This document shows, one piece after another, positions 7,636 through 14,730 of a DNA stretch of 64,000 nt. The DNA lies in NCBI RefSeq assembly GCF_025629245.1, contig NZ_JANZXN010000017.1, positions 62,001-126,000 on the forward strand, read 5' to 3'. The notes under the pieces were generated by a model. The model saw only the letters and a program-made list of their open reading frames with translations. It had not been told where the DNA came from and ran no database searches. Each line of letters begins with the position of its first letter. The first letter of the stretch is position 1. This DNA comes from Natronobiforma cellulositropha. GTDB taxonomy: Archaea; Halobacteriota; Halobacteria; Halobacteriales; Natrialbaceae. The position numbers and the translations under genes are program-made.

Positions 7636-8340
7636 TCAGACGGCTGCCGACGCCACGAGCACTACCGCGAGCGCGAGTACCGGCGCGTCGAGGCGCGTGA
7701 AGGCGAGGTGTGGCAGCGTCGGGTTCCAGGAGAAACAGCGTGCCTGCAGCGCCAGCGAGAGCCGATCCGCCCGCTCGAACGCCCGCGAGAGACCGAGGAG
7801 ACCGATGGTGCCCGCGCGCTCGAGCGCACTGCGTTCGTCGCCGAGTCGGGCGGCCATCGCCTCGCGAATCGTCCGCAGGTCGGCCGTGATCACGGGGAGG
7901 AACCGGAAGACGAGGGCGACGCCGGTGGCGAGCAGGCGGCCGGCCCTCCCGGGTACGGTCCGCTGAATCGCGGCTCTGGAGTCACGAACCGGCGTCGAGC
8001 GGACGTAGGCGGCACTGACGAGCAAGATCAGGAGGACGCGGTAGCTCGCGAACGCGGGGTCGACCGCGGCCGCTGGCTCGACCCAGGGGGCACCGAGGGT
8101 GAGCGCCGCGAGCAGCGGTCCCACTGCGAGGACGACGATGGGGATCCGGTAGGCGTACAGCGTCCGTCCGAGCGCCACGCGAGCGCTCACGAGAACGACG
8201 GCGGTGAGGGCGGTGAGCGCGACGAGTGCGGACGGCGTCGTGTGTGCGAGCGCGGTGAACGCGAACCCGAACTGGAAGGCGAGTTTCGAGCGCGGATCGA
8301 GGCAGTGGGCGAGCGTCTCGTCGGGTTCGTAGACCACCAT
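7636..8340 (-). CDS. bioN: Energy-coupling factor transporter transmembrane protein EcfT (BioN-like)
   Basis: A 234-residue membrane protein. The N-terminus TLAHCLDPRSKLAFQ is the EcfT/CbiQ entry signature. Two Ala-Arg coupling motifs (EAMAARLG and ALQARCF) lie in the C-terminal cytoplasmic helices that contact the ATPase. Known role: it links ATP hydrolysis by EcfA to the substrate-binding S component. It is the third gene of bioY-ecfA-ecfT, starting 4 bases after EcfA stops. Because BioY is the only S component in the operon, a dedicated biotin transporter is the simplest reading. Confidence 0.88.
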   Translation of the reverse strand: MVVYEPDETLAHCLDPRSKLAFQFGFAFTALAHTTPSALVALTALTAVVLVSARVALGRTLYAYRIPIVVLAVGPLLAALTLGAPWVEPAAAVDPAFASYRVLLILLVSAAYVRSTPVRDSRAAIQRTVPGRAGRLLATGVALVFRFLPVITADLRTIREAMAARLGDERSALERAGTIGLLGLSRAFERADRLSLALQARCFSWNPTLPHLAFTRLDAPVLALAVVLVASAAV

Positions 8341-8344
8341 CGAC

Positions 8345-9082
8345 TCAGCGCTCGTCTCCGCGAGCGCGGCCCGTCTCTACGCCGTCGGGAACGCGAACAC
8401 CGAGACCCTCGAGTTCGGCCAGCGCCCGCGCCGGCGCGTCGTCGACGACGACTCGTCCCTCGCTCATCGCGACGACGCGGTCGGCGAGCGCGGCGAGGTC
8501 GCGCACGTCGTGGGTCGCGACGATCACTCCAGTCCCGGCGTTCGAGAGCGACTCGAGGTGGCCGAGCACCGACCGTCTGGCGGGGTCGTCGAGACCGGTG
8601 AACGGTTCGTCGAGGACGAGGTGGGTCGGTCCCATCGCCAGCGCGCCGGCGATGGCCACGCGCGACTGCTCACCGCCCGAGAGCGCGTCGATCCGTTCGT
8701 CCGCCCGGCCGGCCAGGTTGACCGCACGGAGTGCGTCCGTCACCCGGCGGTCGATCTCCGCTCTCGAGAGACCGAGGTTCTCGGGACCGAAGGCGACGTC
8801 CGCGCCGACGGTCGCGGCGACGAACTGATCGCGCGGGTGTTGAAAGACCATGGCGACGCTCGAGCGGGCGGCGACGAGGTCGGTCTCGACGGGTGTGCCG
8901 TCGACGAGGACGGTTCCGTCCGTCGGCGTCAGGAGACCGTTGCAGTGGCGAAGGAGCGTCGTTTTCCCGCTGCCGTTGGCTCCCACGAGGACGAGGAACT
9001 CACCGTCTGGAATCTCGAGGGAGATCGACCGGAGTGCGGGGACCTCCTCGAAGGCGTAGGTAACGTCGCGAAATTCGATCAT
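8345..9082 (-). CDS. bioM: Energy-coupling factor ATPase EcfA (BioM-like)
   Basis: A 245-residue ABC ATPase with Walker A GANGSGKTTLL near residue 34, signature LSGGEQSRVAIAGAL near 138, Walker B HLVLDEPFTGLDDP and switch His in VATHDVRDL. The single ATPase suggests a homodimeric motor as in BioMNY. It follows bioY by 37 bases and precedes ecfT by 4, so the three genes form one operon. The start at MIEFRDVTYAFEE fits the family N-terminus. Confidence 0.9.
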   Translation of the reverse strand: MIEFRDVTYAFEEVPALRSISLEIPDGEFLVLVGANGSGKTTLLRHCNGLLTPTDGTVLVDGTPVETDLVAARSSVAMVFQHPRDQFVAATVGADVAFGPENLGLSRAEIDRRVTDALRAVNLAGRADERIDALSGGEQSRVAIAGALAMGPTHLVLDEPFTGLDDPARRSVLGHLESLSNAGTGVIVATHDVRDLAALADRVVAMSEGRVVVDDAPARALAELEGLGVRVPDGVETGRARGDER

Positions 9083-9119
9083 GGTGGCTGGTCGGCTGGT
9101 CGGTGGGGGTGACGGCTGC

Positions 9120-9701
9120 TCACGTCGGATCGATCACGCCTGCGCGGACGATGGCGACCGCGGCGGCCATCTTGAGCAGGTCGGCCGGAACGAACGGAAT
9201 CGCCATGACGAAGGCGGCTTCGACGAGACCGATGCCGATCAGCCACGCGTAGTAGGCGGTTCCGGCGGCGTACATGAGTACCATCGCGCACGTGAGGGCG
9301 ACGGCGATGACCGGGAGGGAGACCTCGCCGGGGTCTCGCAATCCGTGGGTGCCGTGGACGAAGAGTCCGACGAGGACGACGGCGAGCGGGAACGACCAGA
9401 GGAAGCCGCCGGTCTCGGCGAACAGGTAGCCGACGCCGGCGTTCCCGTGCGAGAAGATCGGTGCCCCCGCCGCACCGGCGGTGAGGTACAGCACCATCGA
9501 GAAGCCGCCCCAGTAGGGACCCAGGTAGAGCCCCACGAGGAAGACGACGAGTATCTGCAGGGTCACCGGTGCAGGCGAGAGCGGGTACGGAATCGCCACC
9601 AGCGCCGTCGCCCCCATCAGTGCTGCCAGAATCGCCGCACGCGCGAACGGACGAACCACGCTCGCGCCGACGAGGTCGACCGACTGCCCCTCTGTTTCCA
9701 T
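9120..9701 (-). CDS. bioY: Biotin transporter S component BioY
   Basis: A 193-residue membrane protein with about six helices. The PVTLQILVVFLVGLYLGPYWG segment, written in part, and YLTAGAAGAPIFSHGNAG are BioY signatures; FAETGGFLWSFPLA and FVPADLLKMAAAV complete the fold. It binds biotin and is energised by the EcfA/EcfT pair encoded next. The start was set at METEGQS because upstream in-frame sequence is unlike the family and because the BirA-type operator lies 15 bases before this ATG. Confidence 0.93.
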   Translation of the reverse strand: METEGQSVDLVGASVVRPFARAAILAALMGATALVAIPYPLSPAPVTLQILVVFLVGLYLGPYWGGFSMVLYLTAGAAGAPIFSHGNAGVGYLFAETGGFLWSFPLAVVLVGLFVHGTHGLRDPGEVSLPVIAVALTCAMVLMYAAGTAYYAWLIGIGLVEAAFVMAIPFVPADLLKMAAAVAIVRAGVIDPT

Positions 9702-9715
9702 ACCGCTCGTCTCTC

Positions 9716-9743
9716 GTAAACCGAAATGAACTATTCGGTTTAC
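9716..9743 (-). promoter_or_regulatory. BirA-type biotin operator upstream of bioY
   Basis: The site reads GTAAACC-N14-GGTTTAC and is part of a longer perfect 10-base inverted repeat (GTAAACCGAA / TTCGGTTTAC, 8-base centre). The published bacterial and archaeal BirA signal is TTGTAAACC, 14-16 bases, GGTTTACAA; the core and spacing match here. It covers the position expected for the TATA box of a leaderless bioY transcript, so bound biotinoyl-AMP-BirA would block TBP/TFB. Confidence 0.8.
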
Positions 9744-10134
9744 GGTCTCCGCTCCGACGGGCGGCTTCGTCCGGTGTTCGAGTCCCCCTGATCGGCTCTC
9801 CCAGACCGGCCCTGGCTGACCCCCGATTCTGCGTGCCAACACCGGACTTCCTGTCAGCTCTCGTGTCGATCTGCGGTCCCGTGGGTGGCCGAATCTGTAC
9901 GCCGCGCTCGCGTCCGACCGCCGTCTCAGCACCAGTCTCGAGTCACCGGCCGGAGCCTGTGGTCTCGCTAAGCGGTGATTGTCTCGCGTTTCTAACTGAA
10001 ACGACCGGCGTCGCTTATGCGCCGACTCGCATCGACACGCGTTGACATATGTCGCTGGTTAGCAAACGGTGTCGCACGCGGTGGAAGCGAGCGGAGAGGA
10101 CGCGAGGGAGCCACTCTGTGGGGCGAGTGCGGCC
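9744..10134. other. Divergent intergenic region, 391 bases
   Basis: No convincing gene is seen. The left end borders the bioY operator. Near the right end, GCTTATG (about 10012) is a possible TATA-like element for the large downstream gene, and TTAGCAAAC at 10060 is an AT-rich spot just before an alternative GTG start at 10069. Confidence 0.5.
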
Positions 10135-13100
10135 ATGAACACACGACGCGGGTTCGGCGTCGCGCTCACCGTGGCCGTCGCCGTCGCGGTCGCCTCGAGT
10201 ATCGTCGTCCTTCCGTTGCTCGGCGGCGCTGGAGCCGGCGGGCCGAGCGGTGTCGAAGCCGGTGACGACGAACGCCCCGAGTCGACTGCCGGGACGCCGG
10301 CCGCCGCGTCGACGGCGGCGAACGGGTTCACCCAGGTTCCGCTCGAGCCGCTGGCGTCGCTCGGCACCGTCGAGGCGGACTCGACGGCTCACGACGCCGG
10401 CGCTGGCTCGCTCACCGCGACGCAGACCGACGGCGTAGAGGCGGGTGTCGAGGAGGGAATCGCGCTCGTCCAGGCACAGGGCGTCGAGGTGAGCCAGGAA
10501 CAGCGCGCTGCCGTACTCGAGGCGGCCGAGGCAGGCGTCGCCCAGCACCAGGAGGCCGACGTCGAACAGGTGCAGGCGGCGGTCCAGGGGTCGGTCCACG
10601 GCGCGCTCGTCGCTCACCAGGCAGTGAACGTCTCGCAGACGCAGGCCGTCGTCGTCGGGGCGACCGACGGCGCGCTCTCACAGTACCAGCAGGCGAACGC
10701 GACCCAGCTCCAGAGCGGCGCGTGGGGGGCGGCCCACGGGGCGGTCGCTCAGACCCAAAAGCAGGAGGTGACCGTCGAACAGCTTCAGGTCGCGACGCGC
10801 GGTGGCGCAGCGGGCAGTGTCTACGAGGCGGGTGAGAAGGACGTCGCCAACGTTGGCAAGACCCAGGAGGCCGCACAGGGTGCCGTCTACGGCGTCCTCG
10901 AGCAGTACCAGAAACTCACCGTCGAGCAGCGCCAGCGCGTCACGCTCGAGCACGTCCAGCACGCGGCGGCGGGCGGGGCGGCGGGTGCGCTCGAGGGAGT
11001 CGTCCTCGAAGGGGAACAGATCGTCGAGGTCGAGGCGTACCAGCGGGTGTCGATCAAGGGCGTTCAGAAAGCCGCGATGGGCGGGGCGGGCGGTGCGCTC
11101 GTCCAGACGCAGACGGTCACCGTCGAGCAGACGCAGGCGGCCGCACGCGGCGGAGCGAAGGGACCGCTCGAGGGGCTGGGCCGTCTCGAGCTGGCGCAGC
11201 TCCAGCGGGTGTCGGTCACGCAGATTCAGGAGGCCTCCTTCGGTGCGGCGACGGGGGCGATCACGCAGAGCCAGGAGGCGTCGGTCGAACAGATTCAGGC
11301 GGCAGCGGTTGGTGCTGGCGGTGGGGTGCTCGTCCAGTACCAGCAGGTGACGGTCAGCCAGACGCAGTCGGCGGCGCTGGGTGCGGCGAAGGGCGCGGTC
11401 ACGGCGGCGGTCCAGCACCAGGTCGTCGAGGTTACGCAGGTCCAGGCCGCGGCCTTCGGCGCTGGACACGGTACCGTCGTCCAGATGCAGGTCGTCACCG
11501 TCGTCCAGGTGCAGGCGCTCGCCGAGGGCGCGGCCGGTGGCGCACTCGTCGCCCACCAGGAGGCGACGGTCGAACAGATCCAGTACGCCGCCAGCGGGGC
11601 GTCTCTGGCGACGGCGAAGGCGGTCCAGTACCAGCGCGTGAGCGTCACGCAACTGCAGGTACTCGCTCAGTCGACGGCTGAAGACACGACCGCGCACGCG
11701 GTCGCGGAGGCGCTCGAAGAGCCTGCCGAGATCGAGACCTACGCCGACGCAGACGCCCGCGAGAAGGCCGACGAGGTCGACGAACGCGAGGGTGAGGCGT
11801 CGCTGACGTTCGACGAGCAGGTCTCGGCGGGTGAGACCGTCGTCGTCGAGTCGGCCACCCTCTCGGCGGGTGGGTTCGTCGCCATCTACGAGGGTGTCTT
11901 CGCCAGTGACCCTGTCGAGAGCGTCCGCGGCGTCTCGGCGCACCTCGAGCCAGGCGACCACGAGTCGGTCGAGATCGACCTCGACGAACCGCTCGAGGAG
12001 AACGCGACGCTGGTCGCGGTGGCCCACCACGACACGACCGGCGACGAGTCGTTCCAGTACGTCGAGCAAGACGGCGCGGAAGACGAGCCGTACGTTGGCG
12101 AGGGTGGCTCGCCGATTACGGCCAGCGCGCTGGTGGCCGTCGAGGATGACCCCGACGACCTCGAGGACCCCGAGCCAGCGCCCGCCGAGGCGACGCTCGC
12201 CGTGGACGACCAGACCGGCGACGGCACCACGCTCACCGTCGACGAGGCGACCGCGTCGGTCGGGTACACCCTCGTCGCCGAGTACGACGGCGAGCGTGTC
12301 GAGAGCGAGGGGCACGAGGCGAACGAGTCGCTCGAGAATTACACCCTCGACCTCGAGCCACCCATCGAAGAGCGTACGACGGTCGAGGTCTCGCTCGAGG
12401 CGGCCGACGACGAACTCGGTGACGACACCGACCTCGACACCGAGACGGGTGCCGACGAGACCGACGGGGTGCTCGCGAACGAGTCGATCGAGTACGATCT
12501 CGAGGCGGTGGCCGTCGACCCCGAACTCGAGTACCTGAACTGTACCGCCGTGGAGGTGACGGGTGACGTTTCGCAGGTCCGCTACACCCAGGCGTTCTAC
12601 GACCCAGAAGGGACCGGCGAGGTCGTGTCGGTGCCGGAGATTCCCTGGGAGGAGTTCGCCGACGGCGAGAACGCGACGCTCCTCCGGATCGGTCCCGAGA
12701 CCGACGCCGTCGAGCGCGACGACGGCACGCGCGTCGTCCAGCTCGAGGACGTGGGCGTCTTCGGTGAGACCGACGGTGGCGCGCAGTCGGTGCTGACCGC
12801 CGTCGAACTCGAAGCCGAGGACGGAAGTCTCGGCGAGCCGGTGGCCAACCCCGACGCCGAGGCGTGTCTCGAGGATGTCCGACCCGAGCGGCCCGAACTC
12901 TCCGTCGAGGCGGCGCTCGAGCGCGAGGACGGCGACGGCATCGACGTCACCTTCGGCTACGAGAACCCGAACGAGGCTGCACTGGTGGTCCCGAGCGAGT
13001 TCGTCGAGGGGACCGTCGCCGACGGGATCGAGCCGCCGACGACGCTCGAGCCCGGCGAGGGGACGTTCACGGTCCAGTGGATTCCCGAGAGCGAGGACGA

Positions 13101-13812
13101 ACGGCTCGTCTGGGTGGTCGGCCTGGAGGCACACGGCTACGACGAGCCAGCCGTCGCCGAGACGGACCTCGCTGGCGAGATCGCCCCGCTCGCAGCGCCA
13201 GCGGAGTTCGTCATCGGTGATCTCGAGACGAACGCTCCGGTCGAGGCGGGCGAGACGCTCGAGGTGACGGCCACCGTCGAGAACGTCGGCGAGGAAGACG
13301 GCACCCAGGCGCTTACGCTCTCACTCGGTGACACGGTCGTCGACACCGACTCGCTCACACTCGATCCCGGTGAGAGCAACGTCGTCTCGCTCTCCTATCA
13401 GACGGGCGAGGCTGACGCGGGTGAGTACACGGCGACGGTCTCGAGTGCGAACGACAGCGCGTCGGTGACGGTTTCGATCACCGAGCCCGAGATTCCCGAC
13501 GAGCTTCCAGGTGACGATCCTGTGCCAGAAGAAGAGCCTGGTGAGCCTGGAGAAGTGCCAGAAGAAGAGCCTGGTGAGCCTGGAGAAGAGGATCCCGGCG
13601 TGCCTGAAAATGCCCCCGGCGAGAACGAGGCGGGCGAGCCGGATGCGCCAGCGGACGGCGGACCGGACGACCCGGCGGATGGAGAATCCGACGCACCCGG
13701 AGGTGGACCCGACGAGCCAGCCGACCCCGCTCCGGACGAGTCACCTGCTGGCGAATCCGACGACCCACTCCCTGCACTCGGTGCGGTAGACGCTCCGCTC
13801 GCGAGTGTCTGA
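10135..13812 (+). CDS. Large surface protein with Gln-rich repeats, DUF7282-like and CARDB-like domains
   Basis: A 1225-residue acidic protein. Residues 1-25 are a signal or membrane anchor. Residues 115-518 hold about 15 degenerate repeats of 23-26 residues, each a short strand-like VTVEQxQ piece followed by a small-residue stretch (AAAxGAAxGAL) and another Q-x-Q. Around 550-670 and 680-800 are two domains resembling the haloarchaeal DUF7282 fold (SLTFDEQVSAGETVVVESA). Around 1018-1119 lies a CARDB-like Ig domain, and the last 100 residues are Pro/Glu/Asp/Gly-rich. No PGF-CTERM or C-terminal membrane helix is seen. The ATG was chosen over an in-frame GTG at 10069 because it begins directly at the hydrophobic segment. 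It is predicted to be exported; its function is unknown. Confidence 0.8.
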   Translation: MNTRRGFGVALTVAVAVAVASSIVVLPLLGGAGAGGPSGVEAGDDERPESTAGTPAAASTAANGFTQVPLEPLASLGTVEADSTAHDAGAGSLTATQTDGVEAGVEEGIALVQAQGVEVSQEQRAAVLEAAEAGVAQHQEADVEQVQAAVQGSVHGALVAHQAVNVSQTQAVVVGATDGALSQYQQANATQLQSGAWGAAHGAVAQTQKQEVTVEQLQVATRGGAAGSVYEAGEKDVANVGKTQEAAQGAVYGVLEQYQKLTVEQRQRVTLEHVQHAAAGGAAGALEGVVLEGEQIVEVEAYQRVSIKGVQKAAMGGAGGALVQTQTVTVEQTQAAARGGAKGPLEGLGRLELAQLQRVSVTQIQEASFGAATGAITQSQEASVEQIQAAAVGAGGGVLVQYQQVTVSQTQSAALGAAKGAVTAAVQHQVVEVTQVQAAAFGAGHGTVVQMQVVTVVQVQALAEGAAGGALVAHQEATVEQIQYAASGASLATAKAVQYQRVSVTQLQVLAQSTAEDTTAHAVAEALEEPAEIETYADADAREKADEVDEREGEASLTFDEQVSAGETVVVESATLSAGGFVAIYEGVFASDPVESVRGVSAHLEPGDHESVEIDLDEPLEENATLVAVAHHDTTGDESFQYVEQDGAEDEPYVGEGGSPITASALVAVEDDPDDLEDPEPAPAEATLAVDDQTGDGTTLTVDEATASVGYTLVAEYDGERVESEGHEANESLENYTLDLEPPIEERTTVEVSLEAADDELGDDTDLDTETGADETDGVLANESIEYDLEAVAVDPELEYLNCTAVEVTGDVSQVRYTQAFYDPEGTGEVVSVPEIPWEEFADGENATLLRIGPETDAVERDDGTRVVQLEDVGVFGETDGGAQSVLTAVELEAEDGSLGEPVANPDAEACLEDVRPERPELSVEAALEREDGDGIDVTFGYENPNEAALVVPSEFVEGTVADGIEPPTTLEPGEGTFTVQWIPESEDERLVWVVGLEAHGYDEPAVAETDLAGEIAPLAAPAEFVIGDLETNAPVEAGETLEVTATVENVGEEDGTQALTLSLGDTVVDTDSLTLDPGESNVVSLSYQTGEADAGEYTATVSSANDSASVTVSITEPEIPDELPGDDPVPEEEPGEPGEVPEEEPGEPGEEDPGVPENAPGENEAGEPDAPADGGPDDPADGESDAPGGGPDEPADPAPDESPAGESDDPLPALGAVDAPLASV
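10480..11690 (+). repeat. Array of about 15 diverged ~72-base coding repeats
   Basis: This is the DNA of the Gln-rich repeat region. Unit length varies from about 69 to 78 bases. Translated units share VxVxQxQxAAxGAAxGALxQxQ. Nucleotide divergence between units is high, so the array is old and selected at protein level. Confidence 0.8.
13522..13587 (+). repeat. Perfect 33-base tandem duplication in the C-terminal linker
   Basis: Two adjacent identical 33-base units (13522-13554 and 13555-13587) encode VPEEEPGEPGE twice. Codon use here (GAA, CCT) differs from the GAG/CCC-rich surroundings, suggesting a recent slippage duplication. Confidence 0.9.
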
Positions 13813-13893
13813 GCGGTTCTCATCCCTCTCTCGAGCCTCTGCTCGGTTCGTCGCGGTTCTCTACGCTCGAGTACGTGTGCGGTGGAGTCGCCG

Positions 13894-14181
13894 TCAGTGG
13901 TGGTGGCCGGTCGCCTCGGCGAAGCTGACGCCGAAGCGCGCTTCGAACAGGGCCATCGCTTCGCTCTCTGCGGCTTCGATCTCGTCGTCGACGCCGTCGC
14001 CGTGGTGGACGAGGTGGTGGGCGCGACTCGCGAACGAGAGGAGCACGATGTCGCCGACGGTCTCTGCCGGTCCCTGGTCGCCTTCGGCGAGCAGTTCGAC
14101 GAGCGTCGCAGGAATCGTGACGTCGTCGCTGTCGGCTCCGGAGTCGATGGTGAACGTGATCGTCTCGATATCGTCTGCCAT
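13894..14181 (-). CDS. Conserved small haloarchaeal protein with His-rich tail
   Basis: A 95-residue acidic protein starting MADDIETITFTIDSG. It has a compact alpha/beta composition, a histidine cluster in the middle (SRAHHLVHHGDG) and a C-terminal ATGHHH. No catalytic motif is recognised. The ATG at 14181 was preferred to an upstream in-frame start because the protein reads naturally from there. It is followed at a distance by other small conserved genes on the same strand. The histidines could bind metal, which is speculation; I do not recognise a function. Confidence 0.7.
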   Translation of the reverse strand: MADDIETITFTIDSGADSDDVTIPATLVELLAEGDQGPAETVGDIVLLSFASRAHHLVHHGDGVDDEIEAAESEAMALFEARFGVSFAEATGHHH

Positions 14182-14280
14182 ACCCTCCTCTGGGTGGGGA
14201 CACCTAAAGGTGCTGTGGCTCTCGTTCCTTGCGTACGCTGGCCGCACGCCCCGCCTGTGACGGATTTGCCACTTCGCCCC

Positions 14281-14730
14281 TCACTCCTCGGCGACGAATC
14301 GACAGATTTCTTCGAAGCGACCGTTCGCCTCGAGCGTCGACTGGAGTTCGCGTGCGTACTCGGCGGTGAGTTCCTCGGCGGCCTCGCGTTCTGCCTCGTA
14401 GCCCGCCTCGCCGCCGAAGCCGAGCGTGCGTTTGAGCGAGTCGAGCAGACCGCCGCCGCTCGAGCCGCCACCGCTCGTCTCTGCGCCCATCGCCCCTAGC
14501 TGTGAGCGGACGTTCTCGAGTTCGGGGAGGACGTGTCTGACCTTCTCGGTGTTCGCGACGATGCGTGCCTGCTCGGGGTCGTCGGGGTTCTCGAGTTCGA
14601 ACTCGGTGGCCGTCATGATCAGGCTCCACTCCTGGCTCGAAAAGCGCGAGGCGGCGATCCGGGCGGTGAAGTCCCGGTCGGTCGCCATCCGCTCGCCGAC
14701 GATTCGGTCGGTCCACGAGTCGCTGCTCAT
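14281..14730 (-). CDS. Conserved haloarchaeal protein (probably DUF5799 family)
   Basis: A 149-residue acidic protein starting MSSDSWTDRIVGERMATDR. The region around FSSQEWSLIMTATEFELENP is the conserved core as I remember the DUF5799 family, which is restricted to halophilic archaea; the assignment is from memory. A Gly/Ser linker (residues 84-95) separates an N-terminal helical part from a C-terminal helical part. There are no membrane segments or enzymatic motifs. It is on the same strand as its neighbours with gaps of about 100 bases, so co-transcription is uncertain. Function unknown. Confidence 0.72.
   Translation of the reverse strand: MSSDSWTDRIVGERMATDRDFTARIAASRFSSQEWSLIMTATEFELENPDDPEQARIVANTEKVRHVLPELENVRSQLGAMGAETSGGGSSGGGLLDSLKRTLGFGGEAGYEAEREAAEELTAEYARELQSTLEANGRFEEICRFVAEE

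Follow-up and report, generated by a model that had tools for sequence, protein, structure and literature searches.

We propose that the protein encoded at 10135..13812 of the window, by which we mean the whole 64,000-nucleotide stretch of the Natronobiforma cellulositropha genome analysed here, carries an undescribed alpha-solenoid packed through GxxxG motifs, set as a head on an acidic, Ig-like stalk and serving at the cell surface in a structural or binding capacity. To this combination taken as a whole we attach moderate confidence; that the repeat array is helical, as structure prediction indicates, is its firmer part and in our estimation quite probable. In our model each 23-residue unit would form one helix of about 14-21 residues, begun by an N-cap serine, threonine, aspartate or asparagine, and adjacent helices, which we take to be the packing partners, would lie very closely together through their GxxxG and alanine faces. 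The glutamine pairs, in the first helix turn and the preceding loop, would line the edges of the solenoid as glutamine-rich rims, which probably bind a ligand or form hydrogen bonds between loops. A strongly acidic stalk of DUF7282 and CARDB domains would hold the near-uncharged and presumably rigid solenoid away from the cell, an arrangement that the domain order suggests. Most likely the solenoid would have a structural or ligand-binding role at the surface, whether in adhesion or as a matrix scaffold, to which the fusion partners of the array and the signs of export point.

Gene and domain organisation

The open reading frame (+ strand, 1,225 amino acids) begins at an ATG and has no internal stop. 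This start was chosen by aligning the hydrophobic N-terminus with those of orthologues; an alternative GTG at 10069 would give a longer version of the frame. Residues 1-36 (10135..10242) form a putative export signal or signal anchor, assigned by hydropathy (mean 2.68 over 18 residues) and by the motif TSVVALPxLGGG, which is common to the N-termini of orthologues. The repeat array occupies residues 97-530 (10423..11724) and is followed on the same + strand by a DUF7282 domain (PF23951, residues 555-666, 11797..12132; E 3.3e-34, 117.9 bits against a cut-off of 27), by a marginal CARDB domain (PF07705, residues 1026-1103, 13210..13443; 24.2 bits, just over the cut-off of 22.7) and by a C-terminal tail rich in proline, glutamate and aspartate and without a membrane anchor (residues 1117-1225, 13483..13809). 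The original prediction, made from the sequence of the window, had described an exported protein in which a glutamine-rich repeat is joined to DUF7282-like and CARDB-like domains, and this outline is supported by the hydrophobic N-terminus with its conserved motif, by the signals and anchors of relatives described below and by both domain matches. The repeat is likewise real; its extent, then given as residues 115-518 with about 15 units, is to be replaced by about residues 97-530 with 13 canonical and some four degenerate units.

The acidic tail contains a perfect 33-base tandem duplication (window 13522-13587, VPEEEPGEPGE twice), likely a recent length variation. Elsewhere in the genome there are about 50 stretches similar to the CARDB domain, which recurs in many further large proteins, and frames of 1,800-3,900 codons on its contigs C2, C11, C24 and C34 hold 5-17 tandem copies of domains resembling the CARDB region. 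Large surface proteins are frequently encoded in this genome.

Repeat unit and its conservation

At a lag of 23 residues the protein shows 106 self-identities, and the best of 2,000 shuffles reached at most 75 at any of the 50 lags from 10 to 59. The 13 canonical units have their GxxxG anchors at residues 152, 175, 198, 223, 249, 280, 316, 339, 370, 393, 416, 442 and 465, with degenerate units near residues 104 and 127 at the front and 488 and 511 at the rear, giving about 17 units in total. The consensus, [VA]-[STDN]-V-x-Q-I-Q-x-A-A-x-G-A-A-x-G-A-L-x-Q-x-Q-x, has a period of 23, and positions are numbered here with its first glycine as 0. When 611 canonical units from 47 orthologues were aligned, both GxxxG glycines proved 100% conserved, followed by glutamine at -5 (97%), alanine at -3 (90%) and glutamine at -7 (82%), and position -10 was serine, threonine, aspartate or asparagine in 79% of units against a background of 16%. 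In composition the array is 20% alanine, 15.2% glutamine and 11% glycine, with 9.4% aspartate plus glutamate, as against 1.6% glutamine and 27.6% aspartate plus glutamate in residues 546-1225; the earlier remark that such a repeat is unusual among acidic surface proteins is thereby upheld.

Among the relatives searched, most genomes of the same family proved to carry the array, almost invariably in one full-length copy, and a contig scan named as carriers Natronorubrum, Haloterrigena, Natribaculum, Natrialba, Natronococcus, Halopiger and others, all of them Natrialbaceae. Of the 47 distinct sequences aligned, the others share 54-69% identity with the window protein across 449 residues, the array being the most conserved part of the protein and the C-terminal third variable. 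Same-numbered units of two orthologues share on average 65-77% identity, as compared with 43% for different units within one protein, and the best match of a unit was its same-numbered counterpart in 92.5% of tests. As the identity and order of units are kept in this way, the array is old and fixed and not an expanding tandem repeat; a phase-variable or expanding repeat is rejected for the Natrialbaceae on the same ground of fixed unit number and order.

A more far-reaching proposal, that the array is a new fold of equivalent GxxxG-packed single helices with glutamine rims, serving haloarchaea as an interchangeable head domain that forms a hitherto unseen fibre or lattice outside the cell, we consider doubtful. 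Assembly as such, in which near-neutral, glutamine-rich solenoids would join end to end or laterally to build an extracellular filament, is also unlikely. The low content of acidic residues relative to the rest of the protein does suggest buried or packed surfaces, small residues cover most of the predicted helix surface, and the units are alike at every lag, as would be expected if the helices occupied equivalent places. The unit length and order fixed within the Natrialbaceae, together with the degenerate end caps, nevertheless look like a closed globular solenoid; furthermore, array length differs between families, with relatives mostly carrying about 10-27 GxxxG motifs, and large and varied C-terminal domains would need to be accommodated. 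The likeness of units at every lag also means that no alternation of A and B helices is seen, and an A/B two-helix solenoid arrangement is rejected for this reason.

Predicted fold of the array

AlphaFold2, given the 47-orthologue alignment, predicts 18 long helices, one per unit, and no strands, with a pLDDT of 87.9 and a pTM of 0.88. The predicted fold is dependent on the model picked, the scores ranging from 52 to 88, with 88 for the best model and 52-84 for the remaining four. Disorder, named at the outset as a result that would speak against a solenoid, was not predicted. In canonical units the predicted helix begins at -9, directly after the N-cap position -10, and the enrichment of serine, threonine, aspartate and asparagine at -10, which was not hand-fed to AlphaFold2, matches that expected of an N-cap and thus supports the helix. 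The small invariant residues at -3, 0, +1 and +4 fall mid-helix in the prediction, the most variable positions being -4, -1, +3 and +7, while the glutamines at -7 and -5 lie in the first helix turns and those at +8 and +10 towards the end of the helix or in the loop; on these placements we base the proposed glycine/alanine packing faces and glutamine-rich rims. The helices may stack regularly into a non-globular array with contacts between neighbours, a geometry considered here from the pTM and the low Foldseek TM-scores. The entropy periodogram of the unit gave no significant helix periodicity (p 0.13) and a competing peak at 2.2 residues, and AlphaFold2 on a distant family of 7 sequences only returned a low-confidence model (pLDDT 45) whose confident ends are helical.

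The original prediction had taken parts of the same units as strand-like and suggested a beta-helix or stacked solenoid. In a fold of this type, or a mixed one, VTVEQxQ and QxQ would form strands carrying glutamine ladders and only AAxGAAxGAL would be helical. Indeed the stretch from +8 to -5 of the next unit alternates as Q-x-Q-x-V-x-V-x-Q-x-Q, the 2.2-residue entropy peak fits such an alternation, and a unit length of 23 residues is typical of beta-solenoids. Such a fold is nonetheless distinctly unlikely, as the AlphaFold2 model has no strands and starts its helices inside VTVEQ, as 47% of units have aspartate, asparagine or serine at position -10, residues well suited to helix N-caps and unfavourable to strands, and as the Pfam models of beta-helix and curli repeats give no match in the array. 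With one helix per unit, as we favour, the supposedly strand-like VTVEQxQ becomes the N-cap and first helix turn, the alanine/glycine face assigned to a beta-solenoid becomes the GxxxG helix-packing face, and the glutamine pairs come to lie at helix ends and in loops.

The glycine/alanine core and the glutamine rows

Two sequences separate the features of the unit. The first, a 1,015-codon open-frame homologue (L059:3-3047, + strand, contig C149 of the small partial genome G030), adjoins a DUF7545 gene as other orthologues do and retains 27 of the 32 conserved glycines and 38 of the 49 alanines with only 6 of the 60 glutamine columns, counts that come from one sequence of a 53%-complete genome in an alignment with gaps. 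The second, a paralogue in another family (L056:2962-4740, + strand) with about 25 GxxxG motifs, has asparagine-rich units of the form NQNVNVNVIQNAALGAAxGAV in which asparagine replaces most of the glutamine and the glycine/alanine core is retained; a near-identical array was seen in that genome only. Since both keep the core without most of the glutamines, the core is the constant part and the glutamine rows the variable one, and it is probably the glycine/alanine core that sets the fold, glutamine not being the structural key. The glutamine-poor L059 homologue offers a natural test of the role of the glutamine rows.

Comparison with known systems

No Pfam family matched within the array in the 47 orthologues and 7 distant relatives, the array matched nothing in NCBIfam or PHROGs, and sequence and profile searches of the PDB were also empty. 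Foldseek against the PDB found no solved structure that shares the shape of the array as a whole, the TM-scores staying below 0.3. Judged from the family libraries and solved structures searched, the repeat family appears undescribed, in agreement with the earlier claim, and by prediction it is still an alpha-helical repeat, a known structural kind. Nor did the array, in these searches, hit a characterised repeat family, the second result named at the outset as speaking against the claim.

Alpha-solenoids of the TPR/HEAT class and designed helical repeats likewise consist of tandem helices joined by short loops, and tandem helical units are found here in the predicted helices with their 23-residue period. 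The array differs from them in having one helix per 23 residues, an invariant GxxxG, flanking glutamine pairs and no A/B alternation, and membership of TPR, HEAT or any other catalogued alpha repeat is rejected in view of the empty Pfam and NCBIfam profile searches. Among designed repeats Foldseek lists FD15 (PDB 8ugc, probability 0.87) and several DHR proteins, yet the TM-score is at most about 0.4 for any listed target and about 0.2 on query length, with no sequence match. The best Foldseek E-values, 2.9e-4, belong to TAL-effector repeats (TOD6, PDB 9ld0; 6jw5; 4hpz), which share a local T-x-E-Q helix start. TAL-effector repeats are 34-residue units of two helices, from which, as from their superhelix, the 23-residue, one-helix unit differs; kinship is rejected as a local likeness of helix pattern (TM-score about 0.1, rmsd 24 Å, no Pfam match). 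Beta-solenoids and curli (CsgA) have a 22-23-residue period and regularly spaced glutamines, and the array has this period and spacing in common with them but neither predicted strands nor a family match. A likeness to viral tail tape-measure proteins (best E 0.03) is rejected as one of generic helices, and the array occurred in no phage record or viral contig examined. Haloarchaeal surface proteins with DUF7282 and CARDB domains resemble the window protein, which likewise has one of each and an acidic tail; here, however, those domains would form the stalk, and the conserved single-copy part is a helical array that has no family model. In the open-access literature we found nothing on DUF7282, nor on a glutamine-rich or solenoid surface protein of haloarchaea.

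Most genomes of a large haloarchaeal family carry, in single copy, a domain of about 430 residues that has neither a name, a family model nor a solved structure. If our model is true, it would be a natural GxxxG array with one helix per repeat, functioning with few charges in the very salty medium outside the cell, contrary to the acidic rule usual for such proteins.

Gene neighbourhood

Upstream of the array gene lie, all on the - strand and divergent from it, bioY (9120-9746), an ABC ATPase gene (8345-9082) and a cbiQ-like gene (7636-8340); downstream, also on the - strand and convergent with it, lie a DUF7545 gene (13894-14178) and a DUF5799 gene (14281-14730). This order, bioY-ABC-cbiQ, array protein, DUF7545, DUF5799 (window 7636-14730), is strongly kept in the Natrialbaceae, where the array gene is usually convergent with the DUF7545 and DUF5799 genes. 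That the array protein helps capture biotin or shields the transporter, as its divergent placement from the bioY-ABC-cbiQ operon in 22 of the 24 Natrialbaceae loci that include flanking sequence (a count in which one contig appears twice) might suggest, is most improbable, given that the array persists without bioY nearby in two Natrialbaceae loci (L067 and L069) and in every examined locus of other families, and that conservation of the adjoining DUF7545 and DUF5799 genes is nearly as strong, pointing to general synteny.

Wider family and export

A profile search across the Halobacteria, which the original prediction had proposed, matched 110 of 391 genomes, all within one order; in a phylum sample no match fell outside that order among the matches listed. 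Named carriers beyond the Natrialbaceae are Halobaculum marinum (Haloferacaceae) and Halomicrococcus gelatinilyticus (Haladaptataceae), whose proteins are both annotated 'hypothetical protein', and with a family model built on the unit, many such 'hypothetical' surface proteins could be named.

Relatives join the array to a right-handed beta-helix, a CAP domain, TSP3 repeats or DUF7282, the last in as many as three copies. The N-termini of three relatives are of a Tat-like twin-arginine type, and several relatives carry a membrane anchor followed by basic residues at the C-terminus. Taken together, these N-terminal signals, C-terminal anchors and fusions to surface domains support the prediction that the array is an exported surface module. 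Neither the window protein nor any of the 22 complete Natrialbaceae orthologues tested, among which one contig occurs twice, has the C-terminal anchor. The N-terminal hydrophobic segment may retain the window protein at the cell, or the protein may be released, both being compatible with the sequence.

Two further relatives differ widely in build. The 2,292-codon frame at L058:2643-9518 (+ strand) combines the array with TSP3 repeats, numerous repeated beta-domains and a CAP domain and ends in a C-terminal membrane anchor. The frame at L063:2789 (- strand, genome G046) encodes a 342-codon relative with few GxxxG units and a lysine-rich stretch, and its tail is made of VDVSQSQS-like glutamine/serine repeats, very unlike the acidic tails of other members.
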